Of a stretch of DNA of 27,604 nucleotides, positions 2,980-27,604 are shown piece after piece. The notes beneath the pieces were generated by a model. The model had not been told where the DNA came from and did not search any database. It saw nothing but the letters and a program-made list of their open reading frames with translations. The DNA comes from a virus. The position numbers and the translations under genes were made by a program. Where the stretch lies: the IMG/VR virus record IMGVR_UViG_3300032116_001071, positions 1 to 27,604 of that record, one strand, 5' to 3'. How positions within the stretch are numbered: position 1 is the first letter of the stretch; the number at the start of each line of letters is the position of its first letter.

Positions 2980-3612
2980 TCAGAACCAGTCAAGAATTTG
3001 GTCTTTGCAGCGACCTGTCACCAGATCGGGACCGCCCACGCCATTGACGCGCCGCCATCCTGGCCCCTCCGCCAGCCGACGGAAGCCGTAATACACCCGG
3101 CTGAGGAAGGCCTCCCCTTCCGTCTCGATGCGATCCTGTGCGCGATGGCGGAGACGCGCCATCGCTTCCGCGAGCGGCACATCCAGCCACAGGGTAAGGT
3201 CAGGCTGAAGGCCATTGGCAGCGAAGCGATGCAGGGCCCCGAGCAGCTCCAGGGGGTGGCCGCGCCCATGACCCTGATAGGCAAGCGTGGACCCGTGGTA
3301 ACGATCGGACAGCACCCAATGGCCGGCGGCCAGGGAGGGGGCGACACGCTCGGCCACATGCTGGGCGCGATCGGCCAGATACAGGAGCAGCTCCGCCCCC
3401 CAGCAAGGCGATTGCCCTGCTGGGGGGTGGAGGAGGAGATCTCGAAGGGCATGCCCGAAAGGCGTGCCGCCGGGCTCGCGGGTGGTGATCACTTTGGCGC
3501 CGGGGGGGAGCAGGCCACTGTCGGGCAGCCAATCCCGGAGCGCTTCGAGCTGTGTGGTTTTGCCACAGCCGTCGATGCCTTCGAGCACGATGAACCGACC
3601 GCGATGGCTCAT
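2980..3612 (-). CDS. tmk: thymidylate kinase (dTMP kinase), cyanobacterial type
   Basis: The enzyme phosphorylates dTMP to dTDP with ATP in the cytosol, feeding dTTP synthesis. Visible motifs are the P-loop LEGIDGCGKTTQ (residues 9-20), TREPGGTPFG in the substrate site, the SDRYHGSTLAYQG signature, and a LID with RLRHRAQDRIE. With the ATG at 3612 the protein is 210 aa, the normal family length, so it looks intact. I chose this start because it forms an ATGA overlap with the endolysin stop and because the family begins MxxRGRFIVLEGIDG; a start at 3639 would add nine residues. To my memory, the sequence is closest to Synechococcus-type Tmk. It is the last gene of the late operon, an odd place for nucleotide metabolism, and is probably a host-derived auxiliary gene. 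Confidence 0.92.
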   Translation of the reverse strand: MSHRGRFIVLEGIDGCGKTTQLEALRDWLPDSGLLPPGAKVITTREPGGTPFGHALRDLLLHPPAGQSPCWGAELLLYLADRAQHVAERVAPSLAAGHWVLSDRYHGSTLAYQGHGRGHPLELLGALHRFAANGLQPDLTLWLDVPLAEAMARLRHRAQDRIETEGEAFLSRVYYGFRRLAEGPGWRRVNGVGGPDLVTGRCKDQILDWF

Positions 3613-3639
3613 CGGATGAAATCGACCACGATGGCCCAT
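3589..3639 (-). repeat. imperfect 24/25-nt direct repeat across the endolysin/tmk junction
   Basis: On the plus strand 3589-3612 and 3615-3639 align with 21 identical bases, three substitutions and one gap; both begin GATGAA and end CAT. On the minus strand each copy begins with ATG followed by codons for (G/S)HRGRF. The right copy encodes the C-terminus of the endolysin in another frame, and the left copy encodes the start of tmk. Confidence 0.7.
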
Positions 3640-4859
3640 CCCTTGCCCGGAGCGAAACGGTAGGCACCACCACCGATGGGCTCCACCATCCAGCGCTTGC
3701 CGAAGTTCTGGCGGGAGAAGCGGAGCTCCTTGCCGTTCGCGTTCAGCGTGTCCCCCGTGATCAGATCGGGCTCACCCCAGGGGTCGTTGACCACCACCTG
3801 GGTGGGGGTATGACCAATCACAATCAGCCAATGGCCCGAGCCTGTGGGGCGGTTCACCGGACCCCGATGGATGTAACCGCATGGCACCGGGATGCCGCGA
3901 GCGATCTGCTGCTCGAGCAGCTGGAAGTCAGCGTTCTGGACCATCCGGGCGGTGACACCGAAATGAGCCAGCGCCTTGATCTGCGCACTGGCGTCGGTGG
4001 TATCGCCAAAGCGCTGCACTACAGCCAGGTATTCGTCGTCGCCATTGGCGCCCTTCAGCGTGCCGGGCTTAATGGCCTCCAAGAGCATGGCACAGCTGGA
4101 GGAGAAACACATCCGCAGGCCCTGGCCGGTGGCCGAGTCACGCTGTGGATACCAGGGGACGGCTCTTAAAACGCTGGTGATTGCCACCGCTGGGGGTGGA
4201 GCCGGAGCCGGAGCAGGGCCGGCATTCCAGAGAGCACCCTCTGCCTTGCGACGGCGGCGGAGTCCTGCTTCGCTGGGGCCGCCTTGGTTCACGTACAGCA
4301 TCATCGCCGCTGGCACGTCAGCCAACCTGCCCTCGCTCAATGCCTTGGTGATGGTGTCGAACCCCTGGCTGCCAAACCAGTTGGGGCCAACGTTGTAGGT
4401 GAACGACAGCAGTGCCGCCCGCTGATTCAGGTTCAGCCGATCCCACCCCTCTACACGGCCGGTGATCGTGACGCAATCCTCCTCCAGTCGCGCAAACAGC
4501 AACGCATTAGCCACCTCTTGGGTGATCACATCCCCTTCTTTTACCGGCTTGCCCGTGGCATAGGTGGTCGTTCCCCACCCGATCGTCCAGGGCTCCCCGC
4601 CCGTTTCGGGGTCGGGATACGCCTCAAGCTTGCAGCCCTCAAACTCCTTCACCTGGGGCAGCGCGGCCAACGCCACCTGGGCAGGAGCCATGACCGGGCC
4701 GGTCCGCCCGCGCCAGATCCGCCACAGCTCCCCACCTTCGGCGAGCGCACCCGGATCAGCGGCCACCAGTTTGGTCAGCACCGCATGCAACCATTCTCGA
4801 TGGTGTGAGAGGCTTTTGTCAAAAAACTTGACATAATCTTCCACTGAGCTGTCAGTCAT
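3609..4859 (-). CDS. two-domain endolysin: GH24 lysozyme plus C39-like peptidase
   Basis: This 416-residue lytic enzyme acts on peptidoglycan. Residues 62-212 form a T4-type GH24 lysozyme (muramidase) domain, with KEFEGCKLEAYPD carrying the expected catalytic Glu (E74), D83, the WTIGWGT element with T92, and the later LNLNQRAALLSFTYNVG motif. An AP-rich linker follows (213-226). Residues 232-395 look like a papain-fold C39-like peptidase: a cysteine at 251 or 256 (MCFSSSCAM), H343 in SGHWLIVIGH and D359 in VVNDPWGEP. The N-terminal 55 residues are a helical extension without a signal peptide, so a holin would be needed for export. It is joined to its neighbours by ATGA overlaps on both sides. 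A role in entry as a virion-bound enzyme cannot be excluded, because it follows tail genes directly. Confidence 0.9.
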   Translation of the reverse strand: MTDSSVEDYVKFFDKSLSHHREWLHAVLTKLVAADPGALAEGGELWRIWRGRTGPVMAPAQVALAALPQVKEFEGCKLEAYPDPETGGEPWTIGWGTTTYATGKPVKEGDVITQEVANALLFARLEEDCVTITGRVEGWDRLNLNQRAALLSFTYNVGPNWFGSQGFDTITKALSEGRLADVPAAMMLYVNQGGPSEAGLRRRRKAEGALWNAGPAPAPAPPPAVAITSVLRAVPWYPQRDSATGQGLRMCFSSSCAMLLEAIKPGTLKGANGDDEYLAVVQRFGDTTDASAQIKALAHFGVTARMVQNADFQLLEQQIARGIPVPCGYIHRGPVNRPTGSGHWLIVIGHTPTQVVVNDPWGEPDLITGDTLNANGKELRFSRQNFGKRWMVEPIGGGAYRFAPGKGWAIVVDFIR

Positions 4860-24965: not shown

Positions 24966-26882
24966 CTAGCTGAACCTCAGGCCTTTCAGGAGCGATACGC
25001 GCCCCTCGCCCTGGGCTCCCTTCCGCCGCGTCATGGCTTGCGCCTCCAGCTGATCCCACATCGTACCGCGTGCAAACTCACGCGCCACTAGATCGACCAT
25101 CGCGCTCGCATACACCGCCGTATCCAGCGGTTCGTTGCGAGCCCCTGGGGGGTTGTGCCATTCCAGCCTCTGAAATCCCTTGACCATCTTCGGGATCAAC
25201 CGCTCACACGTCAAACCCTTCAAGAATTCCTGAGTAGCATTCTGGCCAAAATGGATAAACCCAGGGCCAGCCGTTTCGATCAGCAGCTGCCTGTATAAAG
25301 TACGTTTTAATCCATGAACCCCCAACTGATATAAAGTCACGCCTGATTTAATTACTTTATTTTTGTAATTTATATCCATCTTCTTGCCTGGACTCACGGG
25401 TGGCGCCGTTGCCTTGACAGCTCCACTAATCGCCACCACATTTTCGCGAGCATGCAATCTACAGTATTCATATACCTCATGGGTAAAATGTCCCCCGCTA
25501 TCAACGCAAGTTCTAGCCACTTCAAAATATCGATCTTCATCCGCATTAAATTGTGTCCTCCTGATCGCATTAACCTGTAGCCATGGGCCGCCATTCTTTG
25601 GATTACATTCTACATTCTGCGCTGGATCACCTACAATCTTCTCATGCCATATCAGCCATCTTTCCCTATCACGTCCAAATCCCCATACGGCTACCTCCAG
25701 CCAGGTATCCTGTACATCAACCGCACACGTCAGCAGTAAAACACCAGGCGGGCAGTAACCCGTAGCATAAGGCTCCATCTGTGCTCTCTTCATCAATGCA
25801 TCAGCATTTACCTCGGCAACGCTCTCATCCTGGAACGCTTCAGCCGCTCTCTTGTTAATCCATCCCTTCAGCAACAATGCATCACCTTTGGCCCTCAAAA
25901 ATTCATTCCTGATTTGATGCCAGCTCAACCACCCCGCTGGCGCATACCATCCCGGCAGGTGAAATCCAGCCGTCTCACCATCCCCCTCAGCTGTCGCACG
26001 CCATATCCCACCAGGTAACATTGATTCTTTATGCTCCTCACTTATTCGCGTTTGGCAATGCTCGCACCTGCAAAATACTTCCCCGGCTGGTGTATCCCAT
26101 ACAAAATGTTGACGCCATTGTAAAATCTGACGCTCACCACAACATGGCATCTTTACCGCATACCTCCGCTGATCTGATCGCTCTTCAAATTCCCATGTAA
26201 TTCGACAAGCTCCCCTCACGCCAGGCGTTGATGTAAGCAACGTTTTTCGATTCGGAAAATTCGTGAGGCGTGCTTCCGCGTTTTCCAACGGATCGCCCTT
26301 GTCATCCGCTTCATTTGGGACAGAAGACAGCTCATCTACCCACAAGCAGCCAGCCGGCATCCCCTGGCTAGCGCTTCCACTATTACTCCCAATAATTGAT
26401 ACAATCATATCCCCTGCAAATTCTTTTAAGAACATACTATTGGCTGCATCCCTTGTTTTTACTGACACTTGCCTTTCTTTTATGGAGGGCGTATTATTAA
26501 AAAGTGGCGTAAACCTTTGCCGCACCTGCCTCTTCGCAAAACTCTCAGACGGAAACATCACCAAAAATGGAGTCGGGTTCAATACAATCGTCGCCCCCAA
26601 CCAATTAAGGCCCGCCTCCGTCTTGCCTCCGCTCTGGCTGCCGAACACCATTACAACTCGTTTGATCTTCGTCTCGCTTGGACTCAATAAATTCATCGGC
26701 TCCCTCAGGAATGGCGTCCGCTCCGTCCGCCATGGGCCCGGTTCTGAGCTTGACCGCCTAGTCAGCACCCTCTCAGCATCGGCCCACTGACTCACCGTCA
26801 TATCCGGCGGCGGTTGCAACGCCTCCAGAAACGCCCGTCGATACGCATCCCCGGCTGATACAGGTGCCCAGTTTCCGCTCAT
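24966..26882 (-). CDS. terminase large subunit, gpA family
   Basis: This 638-residue DNA-packaging motor has an N-terminal ATPase and C-terminal nuclease. The Walker A-like motif is GSQSGGKT (81-88) and Walker B is GCLWVDE (178-184), with a TSTP coupling motif near 217-220. Cysteines at 247, 248, 271, 273 and 276 form a likely zinc ribbon. The nuclease domain shows AVDVQ with D389, a following WLEVAVWGFGRD strand, CVDSGGH, and a late PLDTAVYA. All this fits the lambda gpA family, which cuts cos sites. It starts with an ATGA overlap on the small subunit. Length matches gpA (641 aa). Confidence 0.95.
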   Translation of the reverse strand: MSGNWAPVSAGDAYRRAFLEALQPPPDMTVSQWADAERVLTRRSSSEPGPWRTERTPFLREPMNLLSPSETKIKRVVMVFGSQSGGKTEAGLNWLGATIVLNPTPFLVMFPSESFAKRQVRQRFTPLFNNTPSIKERQVSVKTRDAANSMFLKEFAGDMIVSIIGSNSGSASQGMPAGCLWVDELSSVPNEADDKGDPLENAEARLTNFPNRKTLLTSTPGVRGACRITWEFEERSDQRRYAVKMPCCGERQILQWRQHFVWDTPAGEVFCRCEHCQTRISEEHKESMLPGGIWRATAEGDGETAGFHLPGWYAPAGWLSWHQIRNEFLRAKGDALLLKGWINKRAAEAFQDESVAEVNADALMKRAQMEPYATGYCPPGVLLLTCAVDVQDTWLEVAVWGFGRDRERWLIWHEKIVGDPAQNVECNPKNGGPWLQVNAIRRTQFNADEDRYFEVARTCVDSGGHFTHEVYEYCRLHARENVVAISGAVKATAPPVSPGKKMDINYKNKVIKSGVTLYQLGVHGLKRTLYRQLLIETAGPGFIHFGQNATQEFLKGLTCERLIPKMVKGFQRLEWHNPPGARNEPLDTAVYASAMVDLVAREFARGTMWDQLEAQAMTRRKGAQGEGRVSLLKGLRFS

Positions 26883-27442
26883 CCCATATCCCTCAGCGCA
26901 CGCAACGCTGTCTTCAGCTCACCATCAATCAATTGACGAATCGCCTGCTGGTCATTCATTGACGCCACACGACCCGCCACCCGATCGGATACAGCCAAAA
27001 TCGAATCCCGTAATGCCATCGCTAACGTAGCCGCCTCTTGCCTCATCTCTTCAATGCTTCCAACCTCTTGCCTATCCCTCAACGCTGCCACCCTCTGGCG
27101 CTCGGCCTGATAGTGCTCCCTCCTGGCCTGGCTGATATTCAGATCAGGTATCTCATCTTCGGGCAGGCTGGCTACCAGCGCCTTTATTTCTCCAGCACTA
27201 GGCAGCCTCCGCGATTCCCCTACATCTATCTCCGGTAGATCCTCTTCAGACTTCCTCCTGTTGCGATGGCTTACCTTTGTTCGCGCCGTCCATAGCTCCA
27301 GTGCTAAATCCTTGCGCAACACCTTCTTCCCTTGGCGCATCACCACCGCGTCGGCCAGCCGCGTTTTCATCGCCTGATTAACGGCTGAGACCGAAACGCC
27401 TTTGAGCTTCGCAAAATCAGCTTGACTGATGCACTCCACCAA
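26879..27442 (-). CDS. terminase small subunit, Nu1-like
   Basis: This 187-residue protein would recognise the packaging site. An N-terminal winged helix-turn-helix (ISQADFAKLKGVSVSAVNQA, then KVLRKDLALELW) is followed by a charged linker and a long C-terminal helical region (AEAR-type: EEMRQEAATLAMALRDSILA) for assembly and large-subunit contact. An in-frame TAA lies 6 nt upstream. The start must therefore be the TTG at 27442 or the GTG at 27439, since later ATGs would cut the HTH. No strong Shine-Dalgarno is present. The repeated motifs upstream are candidates for its binding sites. Confidence 0.85.
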   Translation of the reverse strand: MVECISQADFAKLKGVSVSAVNQAMKTRLADAVVMRQGKKVLRKDLALELWTARTKVSHRNRRKSEEDLPEIDVGESRRLPSAGEIKALVASLPEDEIPDLNISQARREHYQAERQRVAALRDRQEVGSIEEMRQEAATLAMALRDSILAVSDRVAGRVASMNDQQAIRQLIDGELKTALRALRDMG

Positions 27443-27462
27443 TCTTTAGGGCCCATCCTTGG

Positions 27463-27558
27463 GCTTAAACTTAAGCGCTAGCTTAAACGATCCAGGCACA
27501 AACTTAAATGCTCGCAGGGGAGGGGGGCCGTGTGCCCAGTCACAGCAAGGGTTTAAGC
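27463..27558. promoter_or_regulatory. iterated GCTTAAAC/AAACTTAA motifs, candidate cos or operator region
   Basis: GCTTAAAC occurs at 27463-27470 and 27481-27488, and inverted (GTTTAAGC) at 27551-27558. AAACTTAA occurs at 27467-27474 and 27500-27507. TTAAGC GCTA GCTTAA (27471-27486) is an inverted repeat. A G-rich run (27515-27527) and eight T (27563-27570) lie alongside. The region is directly upstream of the terminase small subunit, where lambda-type phages carry cos with its small-subunit binding sites. The late promoter may also be here. Confidence 0.6.
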
Positions 27559-27604
27559 AAGATTTTTTTTCCCAGCTAGGTAAAAATCGGGGTTCGAATA
27601 TACC

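Follow-up and report, generated by a model that had tools for sequence, protein, structure and literature searches.

In phage lambda, the cos site is laid out as cosQ-cosN-cosB, with cosB itself arranged as R3-I1-R2-R1. Few phages from outside the enterobacteria have had their cohesive ends and packaging signals mapped. Lambda, 21 and N15 have cosQ and cosN in common but differ in their R sites and in the recognition helix of TerS (PMC4669245). R3 occupies bp 50–65 in lambda and bp 48–60 in N15, and its spacing to cosN is critical (PMC9026076). In the PICI EcCICFT073, cosQ and cosN are conserved and cosB is swapped, being read by the winged helix-turn-helix (wHTH) protein Rpp (PMC6739421). Rhodobacter phage RcCronus has a 13-base 5' overhang (PMC8601537), and Dinoroseobacter phage R4C has a 14-bp 5' end (PMC6836515).

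Here we compare these systems with one end of the window, by which we mean the whole 27,604-nt stretch of viral DNA that was analysed. Positions 27443–27604 very probably constitute the right half of a lambda-style cos site, made up of cosN and a cosB-type set of putative TerS-binding repeats. That repeats can change while the core is conserved is already known from lambda, 21 and N15. The cos site described here belongs to this known lambda type, and what it adds is a broader catalogue of repeat variants.

Gene context and the virion end

Genes on the minus strand of the window follow the lambda order, namely terS, terL, a gpW-like adaptor, portal, head protease and major head protein. The terS start codon is 162 nt from the window end, which therefore adjoins terS/terL, and the intervening 27443–27604 is free of open reading frames of at least 60 aa, as the sequence-only reading had it. 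The closest annotated isolates are the Synechococcus phages S-CBS3 and S-CBS1 (TerL 57% identical). A TerL search of genome contigs returned one distant Rhodobacter locus as its sole match, and a DNA search of phage records with the whole window end gave no matches. Inspection of the other end of the window revealed no cos, which makes the contig an incomplete genome. Towards that end lie a gene for an RNA_ligase-family protein (789–1487, opposite strand) and a thymidylate kinase gene (2980–3639) that overlaps a gene for a lysozyme–C39-like peptidase domain fusion (3609–4859).

The last 13 bases of the window (27592–27604, minus strand), overlooked in the first reading, are the cosN end. On the strand that leads into the terminase genes, 5'-GGTATATTCGAAC forms the very start of the contig. 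The T-loop-like GGTTCGAAT on the plus strand might suggest a tRNA or an attachment site at this end. We rejected both, because ARAGORN and Rfam give nothing but a tRNA-Met (CAT) at 356–432, near the incomplete end, and in relatives these letters make up cosN.

Relatives were collected by TerL and TerS searches, with contig ends substituting for read-start pile-ups. Thirty of 79 IMG/VR contigs with a related TerS start exactly at the GGT of cosN and 50 of the 79 start no more than 200 nt from TerS, several besides the 30 being off from the GGT by 1–2 bases. The next 2800 nt upstream contain only 14 contig edges, which are scattered. The mapping of virion ends that had been proposed as a check on the candidate site thus finds, when run on contig ends, a stack at the window's own end base, in a geometry shared by the mapped ends of RcCronus.

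The opposite side of the junction is equally sharp. A strict pattern of cosN plus flank was too specific and found nothing in viral contigs. Scanning for GGGTCCT together with GGTNNATTCGAAC gave 42 stretches, of which a few are clearly due to chance and seven real ones stop exactly after the C of GGTNNATTCGAAC. A relaxed pattern would also have caught ends at 10–12 nt, but every end it found was at 13. One contig (G007/L126) stops exactly after the same 13-mer as that of the window. Moreover, four complete linear contigs have the cosN sequence at both ends, as terminal repeats of 13 nt (GGTTAATTCGAAC, 37,356 bp; GGTGATCGCAAAC, 42,087 bp; GGTATATTCGATC, 34,577 bp) or 12 nt (GGTGATCCGTCG, 41,723 bp). 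Across the relatives, then, the ends are those of cohesive-end phages, fixed at unit length with short overhangs; the window itself holds the left end only.

These ends also bear on two other explanations. The window is classed as linear in IMG/VR, a class that often denotes a fragment, and together with its cos-free other end this would suit an arbitrary assembly break beside repeats that are chance or unrelated A+T-rich sequence. Such a break would have to match, to the base, the start of dozens of other contigs and the two termini of complete contigs, and a single assembly artefact is unlikely to lie behind a pile-up drawn from many samples and divergent sequences. The shuffle tests and conservation described below contradict the remainder of this explanation, which we consider barely conceivable. 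Headful packaging of the pac type, in which the repeats would belong to a pac site and the end would be no more than the cut that initiates a series, has a precedent in the related phage S-LBS1, called headful by PhageTerm (PMC6157547). A pac phage would, however, have variable distal ends, whereas seven contigs have fixed right ends and four complete contigs have both ends fixed and share 12–13 nt. Headful packaging is therefore very unlikely. S-LBS1 was called headful though its close relatives carry the cos core.

We thus identify base 27604, from comparison of contigs, as the left cohesive end of the virion DNA, because of the pile-up, the fixed right ends and the repeats at both ends of complete contigs. 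Overhangs with 5' polarity are filled in at library preparation, giving a repeat at both ends, and 3' overhangs are lost (PMC5557969). The overhang here is probably 13 nt long. Its polarity is probably 5', since both contig ends retain the repeat and RcCronus offers an analogy.

The cosQ–cosN core in relatives

The window stops at cosN, hence its own cosQ is not visible. In relatives whose contigs continue across the junction, including the nearest one (L005), the heptamer GGGTCCT lies 19–21 nt before cosN, and cosQ of the window would be expected just beyond the contig end. The heptamer is identical to cosQ of lambda, where it is 23 nt from the 12-nt end in the lambda record. The letters of the cohesive ends are unrelated, lambda having the 12-nt GGGCGGCGACCT in place of the 13-nt end found here. 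Just inside cosN the likeness returns. The conserved block CCCGATTTTTACCTAGCTGG (27572–27591, minus strand; family form CnCGnTTTTTnCTAGCG, from column counts over 33 left ends) is a lambda-like flank resembling TTTTCGCTA, and bp 13–27 of lambda match bp 14–28 of one relative (L103) at 13 of 15 positions without a gap.

The same core is found in RcCronus (RcA cluster, Cronusvirus), whose record opens with GGTTCCTTCGCGC and closes with that 13-mer again, preceded at a distance of 19 nt by GGGTCCT. RcCronus resembles the window family in this heptamer and spacing, in a cosN beginning GGT, in the 13-nt end and in having terS as gp1. It differs in that terS is only 48 nt from the end, the TTAA repeat cluster is missing and the right half of cosN is different. 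In the R4C record, GGGTCCT lies 40 nt from the record end. RcMeacham and RcBaka belong to a cluster with mapped 11-base ends, and RcGingersnap has 12-base ends. cosQ is less conserved in RcBaka and RcGingersnap, because in the former GGTTCTTCC stands 25 nt short of the record end, and inspection of the latter found no GGGTCC near its own.

S-CBS1 and S-CBS3 share with the window their gene order, the TerL similarity and a cosQ-like GGGTCC before the record joint. Unlike the window, they show no TTAA cluster; their records were opened inside terS, and cosN is absent from that of S-CBS1. The S-CBS1 record (NC_016164.1; L085) was deposited as a complete circle. It breaks off a few bases past cosQ and resumes inside terS (30332/1), and from its sequence it appears to lack cosN, cosB and the 5' portion of terS. 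Both phages have been described as being without terS (PMC6157547). Contrary to that description, tblastn finds the remainder of terS at the start of the S-CBS1 record.

Repeats between cosN and terS

The gene-free end carries short repeats whose arrangement parallels that of lambda cosB. The octamer GCTTAAAC occurs three times in the window, all three inside one 96-nt stretch of the gene-free end, against 0.50 copies expected window-wide. As first described, one of the three is inverted: 27463–27470 (+), 27481–27488 (+) and 27551–27558 (−). The second motif reported there, AAACTTAA, is likewise present twice (27467–27474 and 27500–27507), and the inverted repeat was recovered at 27478–27488/27551–27561. 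In the 149 nt from cosN to TerS, none of 5000 dinucleotide shuffles reached three copies of GCTTAAAC, and any 8-mer was present three times in 0.32% of 5000 shuffles, a figure that allows for word choice.

Numbered from the cohesive end, the first repeat is at bp 47–54 and a cluster follows at bp 98–142, ahead of terS. The R3-like repeat (27551–27558, minus strand) is thus at the R3 position of lambda and N15, and it is followed, as in lambda, by a spacer and then the repeat cluster. The cluster comprises an R2-like repeat (27499–27510, plus strand, reading CATTTAAGTTTG on the minus strand and containing AAACTTAA on the plus strand), an R-like repeat (27481–27488, plus strand) inverted relative to the R3-like copy, and the composite R-like repeat GCTTAAACTTAAGC (27463–27476, plus strand), in which two of the copies, GCTTAAAC and AAACTTAA, overlap each other and an inverted CTTAAGC. 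Both exact copies of GCTTAAAC in the cluster are inverted with respect to the R3-like copy and the cluster core is near-palindromic, precluding a clean assignment of R2 and R1. With its end base on the family pile-up and its repeats in the place of lambda cosB, the candidate cos site of the sequence-only reading is supported.

The layout also departs from that of lambda. The repeats are TTAA-centred in place of the lambda R sequence, and the position of lambda's IHF site I1 is taken by a C-rich block, CCCCCCTCCCC (27517–27527, minus strand), which separates the R3-like repeat from the cluster. This block (CCCCTNCCCC) is conserved in relatives. In addition, the sequence has an A8 tract (27563–27570, minus strand) that separates the first repeat from the conserved block and might introduce a bend.

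Conservation among phages with similar TerS, which the first reading had named as a check on its motifs, is evident. The nearest relative (TerS about 60% identical) carries five copies of CCTTAA. Among the 15 TTAA-type sequences tabulated, the TTAA core starts at bp 48–51 in 12, and a CCCC-N-CCC block is present at bp 77–82 in all 15. The TTAA lineages have short repeats, with cores of 5–8 nt, and several relatives have no k-mer that is significant alone.

The end could be cosN and the TTAA repeats nevertheless be late-operon operators, read by a transcription factor or by TerS as an autorepressor. The repeats are directly upstream of the first late gene, and the wHTH of TerS also resembles MerR and BldC, making a transcriptional role conceivable. 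Three observations run counter to this: the first copy keeps a fixed distance to cosN in those 12 of 15 sequences; the repeats track TerS and not the remaining genome; and where a ParB-like gene separates cos from terS (L018, L039, L046, L120), the repeats stay beside cosN, away from terS. We consider operators an improbable explanation, and the repeats are better read, from their placement and conservation, as putative TerS-binding sites.

Gene order next to cos varies. Over the first kilobase from cos, six relatives (L018, L007, L039, L046, L120, L133) have a gene for a ParB_N-domain protein first and terS further downstream; Pfam confirmed the domain in L018. RcBaka (L257, 164–811) and RcMeacham have this order too, and the ParB_N-first lineages carry GTTAC-type repeats beside cosN. 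Other relatives (L146/L124 and L088) combine the same cosQ-cosN core with different, shorter TerS proteins (beginning MQVCNTKELAEELG and MPEITLGELAKKLG), and their repeats before terS are weak or absent.

TerS, repeat variants and packaging

The terminase had been called gpA/Nu1-like. This holds for TerL (24966–26882, minus strand; 638 aa), a gpA-type ATPase and nuclease that scores above the Pfam cut-offs for GpA_ATPase (PF05876, 208.6 bits, E 1.6e-61) and GpA_nuclease (PF20454, 258.6 bits, E 8.8e-77) and matches phrog_15 (E 5.9e-197). It does not hold for the sequence of TerS (26879–27442, minus strand; 187 aa; phrog_57, E 2.3e-18), which, unlike lambda Nu1, lies outside Pfam Phage_Nu1: the window TerS has no match to PF07471, to which lambda Nu1 scores 333 bits, and PDB sequences gave nothing relevant. 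Only its predicted fold resembles Nu1 and Rpp. The AlphaFold2 model (pLDDT 94–97 over residues 1–50) has an N-terminal wHTH at residues 5–43 (helices 7–14 and 18–26, wing strands 33–43), which would be the reader of the repeats, and a gpA-type TerL paired with a wHTH TerS is again lambda-like. The top structural match of the N-terminal domain is 6hn7_B, the RppC/lambda TerS entry (VIA, Z 8.1; 66 residues, 2.4 Å), followed by 7lw0_A (Z 6.8) and lambda Nu1 1j9i (Z 5.2). This likeness extends to the PICI system, although the window phage has its own TerS and TerL, with no hijacking. MerR proteins score nearly as well as the terminase wHTH entries and the fold is also BldC-like; since MerR regulators share it, the fold alone proves no role for TerS.

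Whereas the cosQ-cosN core is common across lineages, the repeat changes from one to another. TTAA forms occur in the window, L005, L021, L029, L061, L064 and L068, TTAG in L026, L008, L179 and L207, TTGCA in L010–L013, TGTGAC in L090, L094, L099 and L102, GCAACC in L112, GTTAC in L039 and L047, and GTTAAC in L132. Among 41 related, non-redundant TerS, repeat content correlates with the helix-turn-helix given the C terminus (partial r 0.25, permutation p 0.001), compared with a partial r of 0.07 (p 0.14) for the C terminus given the helix-turn-helix. At least three TTAA are present in 20 of 25 TerS with an 'AV' recognition helix and in none of 9 with other residues (Fisher p 4e-5, a test that ignores relatedness and uses helix classes defined after the data were seen). 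The repeat thus follows the helix-turn-helix more closely than it does the remainder of TerS, and the repeat 'dialect' of the window is common only to relatives with a similar DNA-reading helix.

These comparisons suggest how packaging might proceed. On a concatemer, the N-terminal wHTH of TerS would bind the TTAA-centred repeats, with the copy at bp 47–54 in the role of lambda R3 and the cluster ahead of terS in that of R2/R1. Bound TerS would place the gpA-type TerL on cosN, where staggered nicking would generate the 13-nt 5' end GGTATATTCGAAC. Packaging would then run from the cosN end into terS-terL and on through the structural genes, terminating at the next cos with the aid of cosQ (GGGTCCT) just past the contig end.

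More broadly, we hold it evenly balanced whether the aquatic phages with gpA-type terminases possess a single cosQ-cosN core on which cosB has been re-invented many times, with matched TerS helices and repeat alphabets. If so, the matched series (for example, 'AV' with TTAA; 'TV/SV/TM' with TTAG or TTGCA) would allow a TerS-DNA recognition code to be read. A lambda-type cos core is recognisable directly in environmental phage contigs, and virion ends can be mapped from contig ends alone. The putative TerS-binding repeats diversify by lineage together with the TerS helix, and packaging specificity, for which lambda, 21 and N15 are the classic cases, becomes testable over dozens of natural pairs.
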